IMG/VR virus record: IMGVR_UViG_3300017727_000141
Location: 1 to 25,513 of that record
From: a virus
Length of the DNA: 25,513 nucleotides
Strand: one strand, 5' to 3'
A program made the position numbers and the translations under genes. The notes below the pieces were generated by a model. It was not told the origin of the DNA, did no database searches, and worked only from the letters and a program-made list of their open reading frames with translations. Below, piece by piece: positions 3,868 through 10,580 of this stretch (position 1 is the stretch's first letter; each line of letters opens with the position of its first letter).

Positions 3868-4188
3868 TTAATCCCCTATCAAAGAGCGTTCATATTCATG
3901 TTTAACCATTTCAAGCGACTGCTGCAGATCTTCTATTTGATCACGCATCGCGGAAATTTTTTGCCGCATATTGTCAAACCTTTCAGATTGCACTGGCTTA
4001 CCAGCTGGAATACAAAAGTGATAATTTTCGATGCAGCACTCAGCTTTCCATAAGCCATAAGCCATCTCACTTAATTCCTTTATCTGATCATATTTGAAAA
4101 ATTGCACTTCGTTTGTTTCTGCGTTTTTATACTGAAACATTTCTACATCACCAATTTTAGTAACGTGTTTAAAATTTTCTATCTTCAT
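3868..4188 (-). CDS. Hypothetical protein with C-terminal coiled coil
   Basis: A 106-residue protein. The N-terminal half is strand-like, followed by a Cys-containing segment around residue 52. The C-terminal 35 residues have heptad character (MRDQIEDLQQSLEMVKHEYE) and probably form a coiled coil. No family is recognised. The start follows directly on the stop of the upstream gene (TAGATG), with its Shine-Dalgarno encoded in that gene's last codons. Confidence 0.65.
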   Translation of the reverse strand: MKIENFKHVTKIGDVEMFQYKNAETNEVQFFKYDQIKELSEMAYGLWKAECCIENYHFCIPAGKPVQSERFDNMRQKISAMRDQIEDLQQSLEMVKHEYERSLIGD

Positions 4189-4210
4189 CTAAAAATCTCC
4201 CTTGCCTAGA
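4184..4210 (-). repeat. Leader repeat copy 1 (SD and start of the 3868-4188 gene)
   Basis: This 27-base segment matches the segment at 4424-4450 with one mismatch. It includes CAAGGGAGATTTTTAG followed by ATGAA, that is, the ribosome-binding site, spacer and start codon. In this copy it also encodes the last residues of the upstream protein (GKGDF, then stop). Confidence 0.7.
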
Positions 4211-4428
4211 ACATAACCACCATTTCCGTCTGGCTGTAAATCGCCAATCGTATATGGCAAGTAATTATGAACGGTCTGTTCGACAAAACCCTGCGCCCAC
4301 GATGCACAGTGTGATTTAACAAAATCGCGGAAAGTTTCATCATCGCTAGCCGTTTCTGCGTAATACATTTTTAAGGCTTTTAAATCGCGTTCCTTTAATT
4401 CGATGGTGGTTTCTATCTTGATTTTCAT
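4189..4428 (-). CDS. Hypothetical early protein (79 aa), first gene of the leftward operon
   Basis: A 79-residue acidic protein beginning with a strand (MKIKIETTIEL) and then a helix (ERDLKALKMYYAE). I recognise no domain. Its ATG has AAGGGAG upstream, and the gene lies just behind the operator at 4455-4471, so it should be among the earliest expressed products. First genes of phage early operons often encode host-takeover or anti-defence proteins, which is inference from position only. Confidence 0.65.
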   Translation of the reverse strand: MKIKIETTIELKERDLKALKMYYAETASDDETFRDFVKSHCASWAQGFVEQTVHNYLPYTIGDLQPDGNGGYVLGKGDF

Positions 4429-4499: not shown

Positions 4500-5351
4500 A
4501 TGCTAAAAAAAATTATGACCGATGATAATATGTATGAATTGCAGAAACAAACCTACTGGTCTTTTAGCCGCGCTAACCAGCCTAACGGCTATTTTCTATA
4601 TTGGTATGGCACTAAGACCGCAGAAGAAAGACGCCAGCACGTTATAGGCGAAAGCGGTCAGATAGGCACGTTTATCCACGAAGGCGTCCAGCTAGTAGTT
4701 TCTCACGGCTTAGATATAGAACAGGCTATAGCCACTACCGAAGCCGCGTTTGATGATAAGTTTGTTAGTGAAGATGATGTGAAGCGTTCACGTTTTCGTG
4801 AAATGATAGCCCCTATGATAAATCAAGCCGTTGATATGCTTGGCAAATACAACTTCACAAAACCTAAAGACGAACTGAAAATAGAATGCCATCTGCCTGA
4901 CATAGACCTACCCTTTATCGGCTATGTAGATTTAGTGGGTGATGGGATGTTTTGTGAGATGAAAACTAAATCTGTCAGCAAATCGCGCACATTAAAAGAC
5001 GGTACGCAGGGCTGGTCTAAAGGCCGCTTGCCTACTAACGAGCCTGACTGGTCGCACGTTAAACAGGTAGCACTGTATTACCACGCTACAAAGCTAATAC
5101 CTTCTATTATGTATATTGCAGAACATGAAGCAAAGATATTTACGCCCTTTAATTGTGAGCGATTAGGCGATGCTATGCTGGCTACTGCGCTAGACGAACT
5201 GCGTAAACAGACGCTTATAAAGCAAAACCTGATTAAGATATCACCTGACCCTAAAGTGCTAGCTGGTCTGGTAGACCCTGACTGGCAGCATATGTATATC
5301 TGGAATGATGACCAACAAAGAGAGGAAGCTAAACGGTTATGGCAAATTTAA
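4500..5351 (+). CDS. RecB-like PD-(D/E)XK exonuclease (recombination module)
   Basis: A 283-residue protein with the RecB-family nuclease signature: FIHEG (His60), GYVDL (Asp144), CEMKTK (Glu153, Lys155) and the QxxxY motif HVKQVALYYHAT (Gln189, Tyr193). Such phage exonucleases degrade one strand from double-stranded ends and hand single strands to an annealing protein, here the Erf-like product of the next gene, with which it overlaps by 13 bases. The first ATG at 4500 lacks a good Shine-Dalgarno. ATGs at 4515 and 4530 are in frame and no better, so the start is uncertain. It is the first gene of the rightward operon, directly after the operator gap. Confidence 0.85.
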   Translation: MLKKIMTDDNMYELQKQTYWSFSRANQPNGYFLYWYGTKTAEERRQHVIGESGQIGTFIHEGVQLVVSHGLDIEQAIATTEAAFDDKFVSEDDVKRSRFREMIAPMINQAVDMLGKYNFTKPKDELKIECHLPDIDLPFIGYVDLVGDGMFCEMKTKSVSKSRTLKDGTQGWSKGRLPTNEPDWSHVKQVALYYHATKLIPSIMYIAEHEAKIFTPFNCERLGDAMLATALDELRKQTLIKQNLIKISPDPKVLAGLVDPDWQHMYIWNDDQQREEAKRLWQI

Positions 5352-5941
5352 TGAAAGCCCTGAATGAATTTAGGCAGGCATCTTCTGTCGGCAAATCTGG
5401 CAAAAATCCGATGTTTAAATCGCAATACACCACGCTAGGGGATGTGCTAACGGCTATCTCTGGCGCATCAGAATATGGGCTAGGCTGGCAACAGTTTTTT
5501 ACTGGTCGCACTTTGGTAACTATCGTGTCGCATATAGAAAGCGGTGAAAATATACGCAGTGATATAGAACTGCATCCAGAAAGCGATAAGCCGCAAGCGT
5601 TTATGTCATGCGTTACTTATTATAGACGCGCTAGCCTGATGACTATGTTCGGATTGAACGCAGATGATGATGATGGTAATATAGCATCAGCAACAAGGGG
5701 CGCGGCATCCTCCAACTCGCGACCTGTTGCAGGGGCTGGTGGTACTTCCTCCCTTGCGCCACCAGCCCCTTCACGCCCTTCTAATCAAGCTTTAAAAGAC
5801 GCCTTAACCGTATGCGCTAGCGTAGACGAGGTGACAGGCGTTTATAAAAGGCTGTTTCAGGAAAAGAAGTTATCACCTACTGAACAGCAGTTGAATATGT
5901 TAACAGAAGCAAAAGAGAGGCTAAAAAATAATGGATTATGA
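5339..5941 (+). CDS. ERF-family single-strand annealing recombinase
   Basis: A 200-residue protein. Residues 5-115 show the ERF family pattern: NPMFKSQYTTLGDVL (23-37), LGWQQ (48-52), TIVSHIESGE, TYYRRASLMTMFGL and the acidic signature DDDDGN (109-114). A Ser/Pro/Ala/Gly-rich linker (about 117-150) precedes a C-terminal helical tail (150-200). The protein should anneal complementary single strands produced by the upstream exonuclease, serving genome circularisation or recombination-dependent replication. It overlaps the exonuclease gene by 13 bases and the SSB-like gene by 11. Confidence 0.9.
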   Translation: MANLMKALNEFRQASSVGKSGKNPMFKSQYTTLGDVLTAISGASEYGLGWQQFFTGRTLVTIVSHIESGENIRSDIELHPESDKPQAFMSCVTYYRRASLMTMFGLNADDDDGNIASATRGAASSNSRPVAGAGGTSSLAPPAPSRPSNQALKDALTVCASVDEVTGVYKRLFQEKKLSPTEQQLNMLTEAKERLKNNGL

Positions 5942-6176
5942 TAACACTAATCGCGGTGCGCTGTTTAAGAATGACCGCAAAGACAAAGAAACGCAGCCTG
6001 ACTACAAGGGCGATATAAACGTGAACGGCACTGAAATGTGGATCAGCGCGTGGCTATCTACTTCTAAGGCTGGCAAGCCCTATATGAGCCTGTCTGTGCA
6101 GCCTAAAGAAGAACAGGCGGCAACACCCGCAACGCAGCCAGCTATGGATGCTATTGATGACGCAATCCCCTTCTAG
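5931..6176 (+). CDS. SSB-like protein with acidic tail ending in IPF
   Basis: An 81-residue protein. It starts with a short basic region (ALFKNDRKDKE), has a central beta-rich segment (DINVNGTEMWISAWLS, KPYMSLSVQPKE) and ends in an Ala/Pro/Gln linker plus the acidic tail DAIDDAIPF. The terminal IPF after acidic residues is the same kind of tip by which bacterial SSB recruits partner proteins. The core is short for an OB fold but belongs to a common small phage protein type found near annealing proteins. Single-strand binding is inferred from the tail and from position behind exonuclease and Erf. Confidence 0.65.
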   Translation: MDYDNTNRGALFKNDRKDKETQPDYKGDINVNGTEMWISAWLSTSKAGKPYMSLSVQPKEEQAATPATQPAMDAIDDAIPF

Positions 6177-8529: not shown

Positions 8530-8886
8530 TTATGAGTAGGGATTATTACCGCAAGCAGCAGGCCAGCTAGCCTTTAACGCTGCAATATCGCTAGCACTAT
8601 CACCAGCCGTAGTAGCATCGCGCAGAGCCTGTTTATCGGCTACGATTTGCGTAGTATCTGCGCCAGTTTCCTGCGCTTTAATAAAATCTACGTCTAAAGC
8701 CTCTAATAATGGCTTGCGAACTTCGCGGATTTTATCAGCAAAGATTTCTTTTGCTTTTGTTAAATCTTCGGAAATAACGTTGCCAGATAATGACCACGCG
8801 CCCCGAAAATCACGATTAGATGGCACAGTTACTTCACTTGCGTTTGCGCTGTTCCCATCTTTATCTAGGATATATGTATCAACCAC
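8530..8886 (-). CDS. Tail fibre assembly chaperone-like protein
   Basis: A 118-residue protein. The C-terminal half (EIFADKIREVRKPLLEALD ... KQALRDAT ... ALKASWPA) follows the pattern of phage tail assembly chaperone/fibre assembly domains: R..R..LL...D, LRD, then WP. The start is a GTG at 8886 with AGGAG eight bases upstream. Position right after the tail fibre-like genes fits a fibre-associated role. It may alternatively be a small virion protein, since similar domains form the ends of some marine phage fibres. Confidence 0.55.
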   Translation of the reverse strand: MVDTYILDKDGNSANASEVTVPSNRDFRGAWSLSGNVISEDLTKAKEIFADKIREVRKPLLEALDVDFIKAQETGADTTQIVADKQALRDATTAGDSASDIAALKASWPAACGNNPYS

Positions 8887-8897
8887 TGTAAAAACTC

Positions 8898-9356
8898 CTA
8901 TGCGGCTAAATCATCTGTTATGCGCCAAGCGTTGCGCCATTCTCTTGTTTGCGGTAACTGCTGTTTTTTGCAGATGACCATCTTAGGGCGGTTGCCCTCA
9001 TCCCACGTTCTCCAAATGGATTGTGGTATGTCTTTTTGAATTAAGTATTCGATACATTCCTTTTCCGACATAGCTGACATCGGCTCTGTGTTATGTAGCA
9101 AATAACCGCGCGTATGCTTTTTAAAATCTGGCTGCGCTTCATCTTTAGCCAATTCCCAATAAACCCAAACAGGCGGTAAGATGCCGCCCTGTAGCGCACA
9201 GGCCATCCAATTAGGGTCTGGCACAAGTATTTTAGCGCACTCATCAATGCTGTCCTCATAGACCACACGGTAATCTGACTGATGCGGCTCAAGGTTTTCT
9301 TTTGCCCAGCCCAACCTATCCCAGAGATGTGTGCCTTTAAATTCAGGTGTTTGCAT
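8898..9356 (-). CDS. Hypothetical protein of the tail fibre region (152 aa)
   Basis: A 152-residue Trp-rich soluble protein with a distinctive ALQGGILPPVWVYWELAKDE segment (residues 54-73). I do not recognise a characterised family. It follows the third tail fibre-like gene and its Shine-Dalgarno (GGAGATTTGG) is encoded by that gene's last codons, so it belongs to the same translated series. Its high Trp content could suit carbohydrate binding or folding assistance for fibres, but that is speculative. Confidence 0.55.
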   Translation of the reverse strand: MQTPEFKGTHLWDRLGWAKENLEPHQSDYRVVYEDSIDECAKILVPDPNWMACALQGGILPPVWVYWELAKDEAQPDFKKHTRGYLLHNTEPMSAMSEKECIEYLIQKDIPQSIWRTWDEGNRPKMVICKKQQLPQTREWRNAWRITDDLAA

Positions 9357-9775
9357 CAGGCCAAATCTCCAAATACTACAGCTTGCCCTAAAACAAAATC
9401 AGTTGTTATTGCCCCTGTACTATAAACACCAGTGCTTACTTGAAACTGTGATGAAGTAAACGCTTCTGAGTGAGTTTGATCATAAGCACTGCTTGTGTCA
9501 GTGTTTGTCCCATCAGTGATAGCGTTATACGTTGCGTTATCCATTGCTGACAAAAAAGCCACTATTGATTTTCCAGACGTGCTATCTGTATAACTAGAAA
9601 CATTGTAGCTATTTACATTTGTTGATGTATCTTGATTATATCTGATACGAGCTTTTGCACTACCATTCACAACATACTTAACATCTACAGAATTAGGTAT
9701 TGATGAAGTAACACCGCCCACTGTTTCGGTATTTGTTGTTCCTTCAATAGTGTCTGCGATCATCTTGCCAGCCAT
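9356..9775 (-). CDS. Tail fibre-like virion protein, tandem paralogue 3
   Basis: A 139-residue Ser/Thr/Asn-rich beta-type protein. It aligns loosely with the two genes before it: KMIADTIEG start, AKARIRYNQ, NSYNVSSYTDS, FLSAMDNATYNAI, HSEAFTSSQFQ and the FGDLA end. Such short repetitive proteins in marine phages follow the tail tip gene and are thought to be fibre or receptor-contact proteins. The start is the ATG of a TAATG overlap. Among the three it is the most diverged, lacking the Trp/Cys pair of paralogue 1. Confidence 0.6.
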   Translation of the reverse strand: MAGKMIADTIEGTTNTETVGGVTSSIPNSVDVKYVVNGSAKARIRYNQDTSTNVNSYNVSSYTDSTSGKSIVAFLSAMDNATYNAITDGTNTDTSSAYDQTHSEAFTSSQFQVSTGVYSTGAITTDFVLGQAVVFGDLA

Positions 9776-10188
9776 TATGCTAAGTCTCCCAAATAATTTA
9801 TGCCTAAATCTAAATTATCTACTTGAGTAAAACTATCTGCATAAGCAACATTAGTGCGCCTCTTTTGGGTAGTGTTGAGCGTTGTAGAGTGTTCTGGAAA
9901 TAAAGCAAAACCCCAGCTAACCGCTTGACTTGTACCGTGTCCAAAAACATTGTAATTAACACTAGACATTAGATTTGTGACATTTAACTCCTGTTCTGAT
10001 GCTGCAACGTCTAAAAAACTAGATTCATTAAAGCTGTCGTTAACAGTTGGCACACTTTGGTCAACCTGACAAAAAGCCTTCACTAAGCCCTGTTGGATTT
10101 GAAAGGTGGCACCTCCACCTTCGCTCGTAACAGTCACATTGCCAGCCGCAGTCTTGCCAGTAAGCTTGTCTGTAATAATCTCACTCAT
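9775..10188 (-). CDS. Tail fibre-like virion protein, tandem paralogue 2
   Basis: I place the start at the ATG at 10188 (ATGA overlap, GGAG seven bases upstream), giving 137 residues beginning MSEIITDKLTG. A longer reading from 10215 would run back over the upstream gene. Shared features with paralogue 1 are VKAFCQVD, NDSFNESSFLD, NLMSSVNYNV and the LGDLA end. It is Ser/Thr/Asn-rich and probably beta-structured. A role in host contact is inferred from position and composition. Confidence 0.6.
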   Translation of the reverse strand: MSEIITDKLTGKTAAGNVTVTSEGGGATFQIQQGLVKAFCQVDQSVPTVNDSFNESSFLDVAASEQELNVTNLMSSVNYNVFGHGTSQAVSWGFALFPEHSTTLNTTQKRRTNVAYADSFTQVDNLDLGINYLGDLA

Positions 10189-10580
10189 GCTAGGTCTCCA
10201 AAGGTCTGTATGCAAGCTTGCTGTGAATCACGAGGTGCACCCGCATCTCTATTTCTCATAATTAACTGTGAAGCCGAAAACGCATGACTAAAATGCGCAT
10301 TAAATATATTATCGTTACTGACACTATCGCCTCTAACGGCTGCTGAAAAAGAATAGTTTACATCGCTCATAGCATTTACAAAAACGTAGGTGTAATCGCC
10401 CACGGCATTATCTACCGCGGCGCTTATATTGAAACTGTCTCTTACACCAGTTAAATCAGATGTTGCTGTTGCTGATGTGCCATCTAAATTACACCACGCC
10501 TTTGCCGCGTGTTGCTTAATCAGCGTGACAGGGCTAGAGCCGTCTGAAGCTACGATTGTATCTGCTTTTAATGTACTCAT
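10185..10580 (-). CDS. Tail fibre-like virion protein, tandem paralogue 1
   Basis: A 131-residue protein beginning MSTLKADTIVASDG, followed by AAKAWCNLDG, RDSFNISAAVDN, GDYTYVFVNAMSDVNYSF and a C-terminus ending FGDLA. This order (KADTI start, AAKAW, SFN, GDYT, AM.D.NY) is familiar from small virion proteins of marine phages. The start overlaps the previous stop (ATGA). Its last codons contain GGAGAC, which serves as Shine-Dalgarno for paralogue 2. Confidence 0.65.
   Translation of the reverse strand: MSTLKADTIVASDGSSPVTLIKQHAAKAWCNLDGTSATATSDLTGVRDSFNISAAVDNAVGDYTYVFVNAMSDVNYSFSAAVRGDSVSNDNIFNAHFSHAFSASQLIMRNRDAGAPRDSQQACIQTFGDLA

Follow-up and report, generated by a model that had tools for sequence, protein, structure and literature searches.

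Tail-fibre genes of a phage array appear to exchange C-terminal domains at a short coding seam that also holds the putative ribosome-binding site of the next gene

Three adjacent tail-fibre-like genes of a virus genome belong to a family in which C-terminal domains have been exchanged between different N-terminal parts, and the breakpoints coincide with short conserved border sequences, namely the codons of an Ala-Lys pair on the 5' side and GGAGACYTNGCAT on the 3' side. Rows of such small genes are found in many marine phages. We interpret these genes as a slot-and-cassette array of receptor-binding proteins that is swapped by short-homology recombination, a reading to which we assign a probability of about 0.8 and for which we infer the enzymology, the receptor contact and the initiation of translation at GGAG. 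The homology of the genes, the conserved seam, the exchange with its endpoints, the synonymous-only change of the Asp-Leu-Ala codons and the homogenization of seams within a genome are established. According to the proposed model, each slot would have its own N-terminal anchor of ~25–40 amino acids that stays put, and the beta-sandwich domain would be an interchangeable cassette bordered by Ala-Lys(-Ala-Trp) codons at the 5' end and by GGAGACYTNGCATRATG at the 3' end. The 3' seam would perform three jobs: its GGAG would be the ribosome-binding site of the next gene, its translation, GDLA, would be a conserved C-terminal peptide placed just after the last beta strand, and its shared DNA would be the place where exchange breaks occur. 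Because the ribosome-binding site lies inside the seam, any cassette would fit any slot without silencing the downstream gene. Exchange would take place via short-homology recombination, possibly helped by annealing proteins, and would be followed by selection.

The window, i.e. the whole stretch of DNA that was analysed, is a virus record of 25,513 bases with a lambda-family portal, a terminase gpA and a lambda-type tape measure. The sequence-only reading had placed three tandem paralogues at 9356–10580, which is correct; genes A, B and C are adjacent (10580–9356) and all features of the array lie on the minus strand. They are preceded by a J-like central fibre gene (13834–11036, minus) and by a small tail protein gene (11032–10577, minus) located directly before gene A. 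Gene A (slot A; 10185–10580, minus) encodes a 131-amino acid protein of the phrog_11355 tail-fibre family ending in FGDLA, and consists of an N-terminal anchor (MSTLKADTIVASDGSSPVTLIKQHAA; 10503–10580), a 5' seam made up of the Ala26-Lys27 codons GCAAAG (10500–10505), where the identity step of exchange pairs is located, an exchangeable C-terminal domain or cassette (10200–10499) and the 3' seam GGAGACCTAGCATG (10186–10199), which holds the GDLA codons together with the putative ribosome-binding site and the ATG of gene B. Gene B (slot B; 9775–10188, minus; 137 amino acids, ending in LGDLA), for which the listed TTG start at 10215 is unnecessary, has its anchor at 10188–10081, the Val36-Lys37 codons of its 5' seam at 10078–10083, its cassette at 10077–9790 and its 3' seam, GGAGACTTAGCATAATG, at 9773–9789, the last containing the GDLA codons and the putative ribosome-binding site and ATG of gene C. 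Gene C (slot C; 9356–9775, minus; 139 amino acids, ending in FGDLA) is laid out with an anchor (9775–9656), Ala40-Lys41 codons as the 5' seam (9653–9658), a cassette (9652–9371) and the 3' seam GGAGATTTGGCCTGATG (9354–9370), in which the GDLA codons would supply the ribosome-binding site of a gene whose product begins with MQTPEF, and which includes the ATG of that gene. This MQTPEF gene (8898–9356, minus; 152 amino acids) is the last of the array. At 8886–8900 (minus), its stop codon, TAG, is part of the TAGGAG that forms the putative ribosome-binding site of the following gene, which begins with GTG at 8886. Elsewhere in the window, two adjacent small genes (3868–4188 and 4189–4428, minus) carry near-identical leaders, (a)agggagatttttag, before their ATG.

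The proposed homology of the three genes was borne out by profile alignment: A, B and C matched phrog_11355 over most of the protein (E values of 5e-17, 4e-7 and 1e-5, respectively), and A shares 31% identity with B and 26% with C. The landmarks said to be shared among the three proteins are present but looser than claimed, reading AKAW, VKAF and AKAR; DSFN, DSFN and NSYN; and AMSDVNY, LMSSVNY and AMDNATY in A, B and C, respectively. Pfam contained no family for A, B or C, no sequence relatives were found in the PDB, and a Foldseek search against the PDB returned no match below an E of 0.14. Modelled with AlphaFold2 (mean pLDDT 71.8), protein A is a beta sandwich in which GDLA comes after the last strand. 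Structural comparison gave Z scores of 7.1 for the phiAB6 tailspike, 5.8 for the Pam1 tailspike and 4.5 for the R1 pyocin fibre, all below Z 8 and obtained with a model of pLDDT 72. The family name and the position beside a J-like fibre gene suggest that the slot proteins are probably tail-fibre proteins; from family, position and sequence, the cassette domains probably contact receptors.

A sister contig, L010, matches the window at 95% identity in the 600 nt before slot A and at 86% in the 600 nt after slot C, and its anchors, compared slot by slot (A, B and C), are 91, 77 and 90% identical to those of the window. The cassettes of L010 have an identity of 0.51–0.57 to those of the window, the random mean being 0.54, with the exception that the slot A cassette of the window corresponds to the slot C cassette of L010 (identity of 0.93). 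On the upstream side, the match to L010 runs as far as 10482, shortly beyond the slot A Lys codon; on the downstream side, a 93% match sets in at 9373, where slot C has its GGAG seam. Judged from these alignments, the anchors were kept, the cassettes were replaced and one cassette was moved between slots A and C.

To follow exchange among the relatives, members were aligned on the near-invariant Lys (profile position 29) and thereby divided into an N-terminal anchor and a C-terminal domain. A total of 119 pairs share a domain (75–99% nucleotide identity) on different anchors (<55% amino acid identity), and the downstream 60 nt differ in 117 of these. When 39 non-redundant pairs were examined, identity climbed at the Ala-Lys codons from ~0.35, as seen in random pairs, to ~0.95 and fell back to the random level right after the 3' border. 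Conversely, 12 non-redundant reciprocal pairs have flanks that are at least 90% identical around unrelated domains, with the seam following the flank, and 72 of the 125 multi-member cassette families were found on at least two anchors. The swapping anticipated from the sequence is thus real and frequent, and breakpoint mapping placed the loss of identity at the anticipated seam (GGAGAC..ATG) and revealed a 5' step at the Ala-Lys codon pair. The exchanged unit had been thought to be the whole gene; it is instead the C-terminal domain, from Ala-Lys to GDLA/GGAG, and the anchors stay in fixed slots. Of the variation expected among related genomes, that in copy number was observed (3–8 per record), and slot order is largely conserved as ABC, a gap, and then DEF. 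No recent within-array duplicate was found, contrary to the idea that gene units are duplicated. An origin of the array by tandem duplication was also considered and set aside, on weak grounds, given that no within-locus cassette pair reached 75% nucleotide identity and that ~1 was expected by chance. The seams observed are all in direct orientation and number one per gene.

The HMM used for collecting members was built without the last five residues of the proteins. Among the members that it fetched from the first loci, 255 of 271 distinct closed sequences end in GDLA. The enlarged set comprised 901 members in 257 loci, mostly on metagenomic contigs; as a check for bias, the contigs fetched by DNA pattern were removed and the key statistics repeated, and with these left out GDLA ends 548 of 584 members. 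Near-duplicates were removed by identical ends only, and the counts are uncorrected for relatedness. The residue before GDLA may be His, Phe, Leu, Asn, Met or any of ten others, and this wide variation means that conservation begins abruptly. The GDLA ending is real, general and far beyond chance. The sequence-only reading had named, as evidence against itself, relatives whose genes end in unrelated peptides and have their own ribosome-binding sites; these do occur, though only as a few distant members, e.g., L003 and L005. In bacterial genomes one locus was found (Bosea, L318), and its endings are divergent. A GDLA ending joined to a TAATG start overlap is also present in tail-like proteins that lack detectable homology to the family (L113:2437–3279, L177:3785–4636 and L189:4823–5674), perhaps as a convergent solution.

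Seam Leu codons of different slots agree within a genome at a frequency of 0.51, compared with 0.30 after permutation (z 14.9), and concordance was also observed at the seam Asp (z 3.7) and at the 5' seam Ala (z 4.1). Most conserved codons in the domain interior or the anchor showed little or no such concordance, one exception being Ser45 (z 3.3). GC content or codon bias as the cause was rejected, since CTC makes up only 8% of the body Leu codons in loci whose seams are at least 80% CTC. The likeness of seam codons among slots indicates that the seam DNA is copied or kept alike, independently of the cassettes in between. With regard to the codons chosen, CTC encodes the seam Leu in 335 of 845 members (L001–L317) and CTG does so in a single one, compared with ~5% CTC and ~15% CTG in the gene bodies, and the seam Asp is GAC in 748 of 845, compared with 35% in the bodies. 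By these codon counts, the bias exceeds the needs of a Shine-Dalgarno sequence plus a peptide. At the 5' seam, GCG accounts for 353 of 648 codons of the Ala that precedes the invariant Lys (profile position 28), compared with 16% in the bodies, an excess indicating a DNA-level bias at this seam too.

How the seams came to mark the breakpoints can be explained in two ways. The seam GGAGACYTNGCATRATG may have been selected as a recombination seed, such that one 17-nt sequence would act as C-terminal peptide, ribosome-binding site and crossover site; we hold this view tentatively, at somewhat below even odds. Alternatively, the seams might not be used for recombination at all, with breaks falling anywhere and selection retaining the working joins at domain borders. 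That the seams coincide with domain borders, that the shared sequence is only ~6 nt at the 5' seam (it is up to 17 nt at the 3' seam) and that the 36 related records yielded no dedicated enzyme all favor this explanation, to which we would give a substantial, if less than even, chance. It accounts poorly for the within-genome homogenization of the Leu, Asp and 5' Ala codons, which are far from body usage, and for the cross-slot pairs, of which 29 of 49 have the same Leu codon, a level between the third-position identity of the cassettes themselves (0.82) and random (0.30), suggesting that crossovers fall on both sides of the seam Leu codon. As for annealing proteins, ERF was found in 2, RecT in 0 and a Sak4-type protein in 1 of the 36 related records. 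The window itself encodes an ERF-family annealing protein (5339–5941, plus; PF04404, E 8.8e-11), a candidate for carrying out the exchange. Its gene belongs to a small plus-strand operon (4500–6176), in which the 283-amino acid protein encoded upstream of ERF (4500–5351, plus) had no Pfam match. ERF-type (Rad52-like) phage proteins recombine diverged sequences efficiently (PMC3945230), as does lambda Red (PMC2327257).

Whether the seam is kept as a translation signal or as a peptide could be addressed at the level of single codons. Gene A ends with GGA GAC CTA GCA and TGA in an ATGA overlap, which places GGAG 7 nt before the next ATG; genes B (GGA GAC TTA GCA, TAATG) and C (GGA GAT TTG GCC, TGATG) each place it at 10 nt, in agreement with the 7–10 bases initially noted. 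GGAG with a spacer of 8 precedes several other genes of the window. In the 548 members, the Gly codon of GDLA is GGA in 534 and GGG in 14, with no GGT or GGC, compared with 22% GGA, 41% GGT and 25% GGC for Gly in the bodies of the same genes. An immediately overlapping start follows 836 of 845 GDLA members, and coupled junctions are associated with GDLA (Fisher p 0.001). Members in which the Asp is replaced (by Glu, Ser, Val or Ala) mostly retain GGAG, sometimes via a shift to GGGAG. A member in L304 has an earlier stop, ends in EVNVVIHR and has lost the GDLA peptide, and TGGAGACCTAATATG is retained after the stop; as read from the sequence, the peptide and the putative ribosome-binding site are naturally separated in this member. 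The codon evidence agrees with the earlier proposal that the Gly-Asp codons double as the downstream Shine-Dalgarno sequence, and GGAG would thus drive initiation of the next gene.

One could go further and regard GDLA as a by-product of a Shine-Dalgarno sequence and spacer lying in the last codons, with the peptide itself having no role. The restriction of Gly to GGA and GGG, the GGAG or GGGAG retained by Asp-replaced members, the L304 member and the association with coupled junctions would all fit. However, the seam Leu has a codon heterozygosity of 0.71 and an amino acid heterozygosity of 0.04, i.e., it is almost never replaced, and the seam Ala is also Ala at TAATG junctions, where its third base is free. 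In a free-codon scan, viral contigs were searched for GGAGAC-NNN-GCATAATG; NNN encodes Leu in 153 of 153 family junctions, and among 20 matches outside the family 12 encode Ile, Ala, Asp, Phe, Met, Gln or Thr. The remaining eight, which encode Leu, are five short frames (fragments) and three cases of one unrelated tail-like protein type. Since Leu is fixed in family junctions and other residues occur in unrelated genes with the same junction, a protein-level constraint exists. For Leu and Ala, these codon data already contradict a pure translation signal, which we consider improbable overall. The suggestion that the peptide is kept by translation signals is therefore supported for the Gly-Asp codons, but such signals alone do not account for Asp, Leu and Ala as residues conserved over synonymous change.

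Two further explanations were judged very improbable. Nearly all of the exchange evidence comes from metagenomic contigs, HMO-2011 being the sole isolate in the phage collection that closely matches slot queries, and the swaps could in principle be assembly chimeras, but the homology at the joints (~6 nt at the 5' and up to 17 nt at the 3' seam) is below the usual assembly k-mers, and the same cassette-anchor combinations recur in contigs from different samples, such as the GHNQVF cassette in slot A of L013, L034 and L040. A dedicated diversifying machine, e.g., a diversity-generating retroelement or an invertible shufflon, would produce similar-looking variable C-terminal domains with conserved ends; against it, whole domains and not point positions differ, and in the 36 related records, some of which are fragments, no reverse transcriptase (RVT_1) and no resolvase or invertase was found, with an integrase in 6.

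A counterpart of the array is present in Puniceispirillum phage HMO-2011, where members of phrog_11355 among gp29–gp40 form a tandem array with GDLA ends and coupled starts, annotated just as tail fibre proteins. HMO-2011 is of another phage type and has other replication genes than the window, and yet its MQTPEF gene near the array, gp36, is highly similar to that of the window; the genes after slot C (window 9356–8530, minus) are very similar to gp36–gp35 (L001:5565–6417). This likeness between the lambda-tail-type phage of the window and HMO-2011 suggests that phages of different types exchange the host-contact module. No description of the HMO-2011 cassettes or seam was found in the literature searched, a body of work to which the HMO-2011 genome paper did not belong. 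In the shufflon (R64 pilV) and in pilin silent cassettes, exchangeable C-terminal segments with short conserved flanks are joined to a constant N-terminal part. In contrast to these systems, the present array has no resolvase that we could find, its exchange occurs between phages and between slots, and it has no known inversion or silent storage.

Phage receptor-binding proteins that otherwise differ are subject to domain shuffling (PMC10684548); what differs here is that the nucleotide seams and the slots are fixed and that the putative ribosome-binding site of the next gene is carried along. The idea of mosaicism at short conserved boundary sequences has been discussed (PMC3029335), and, like relaxed Rad52-like recombination (PMC3945230; PMC2327257), it involves short shared border sequences as exchange sites, but in the present case the border is itself coding, would serve both the protein and translation, and is repeated in every slot. 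Host-recognition genes are hypervariable in marine phage populations according to the work on metaviromic islands (PMC3909814), the accessible part of which does not use the word recombination and describes no joint motif, unlike the array studied here. In the accessible literature that we searched, we found no description of a multi-slot array in which one coding seam combines the roles of peptide, ribosome-binding site and point of exchange. The three-role coding seam is what appears to be new here; phage domain shuffling and boundary-sequence mosaicism were already known.

Because the ribosome-binding site rides in the seam, the operon would stay translatable despite replacement of a domain. 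Both seams are known to the base; hence, recoding a dozen nucleotides synonymously would put the role of short homology in phage mosaicism to a direct test. If the seam does act as a recombination seed, it would be a standard cassette port through which host-recognition domains are freely transferable among slots and phage lineages. For the way in which abundant marine phages may alter their host contacts, the array provides a unit defined by sequence, in which the domains can be catalogued, the slots named and the movements traced from sequence alone.
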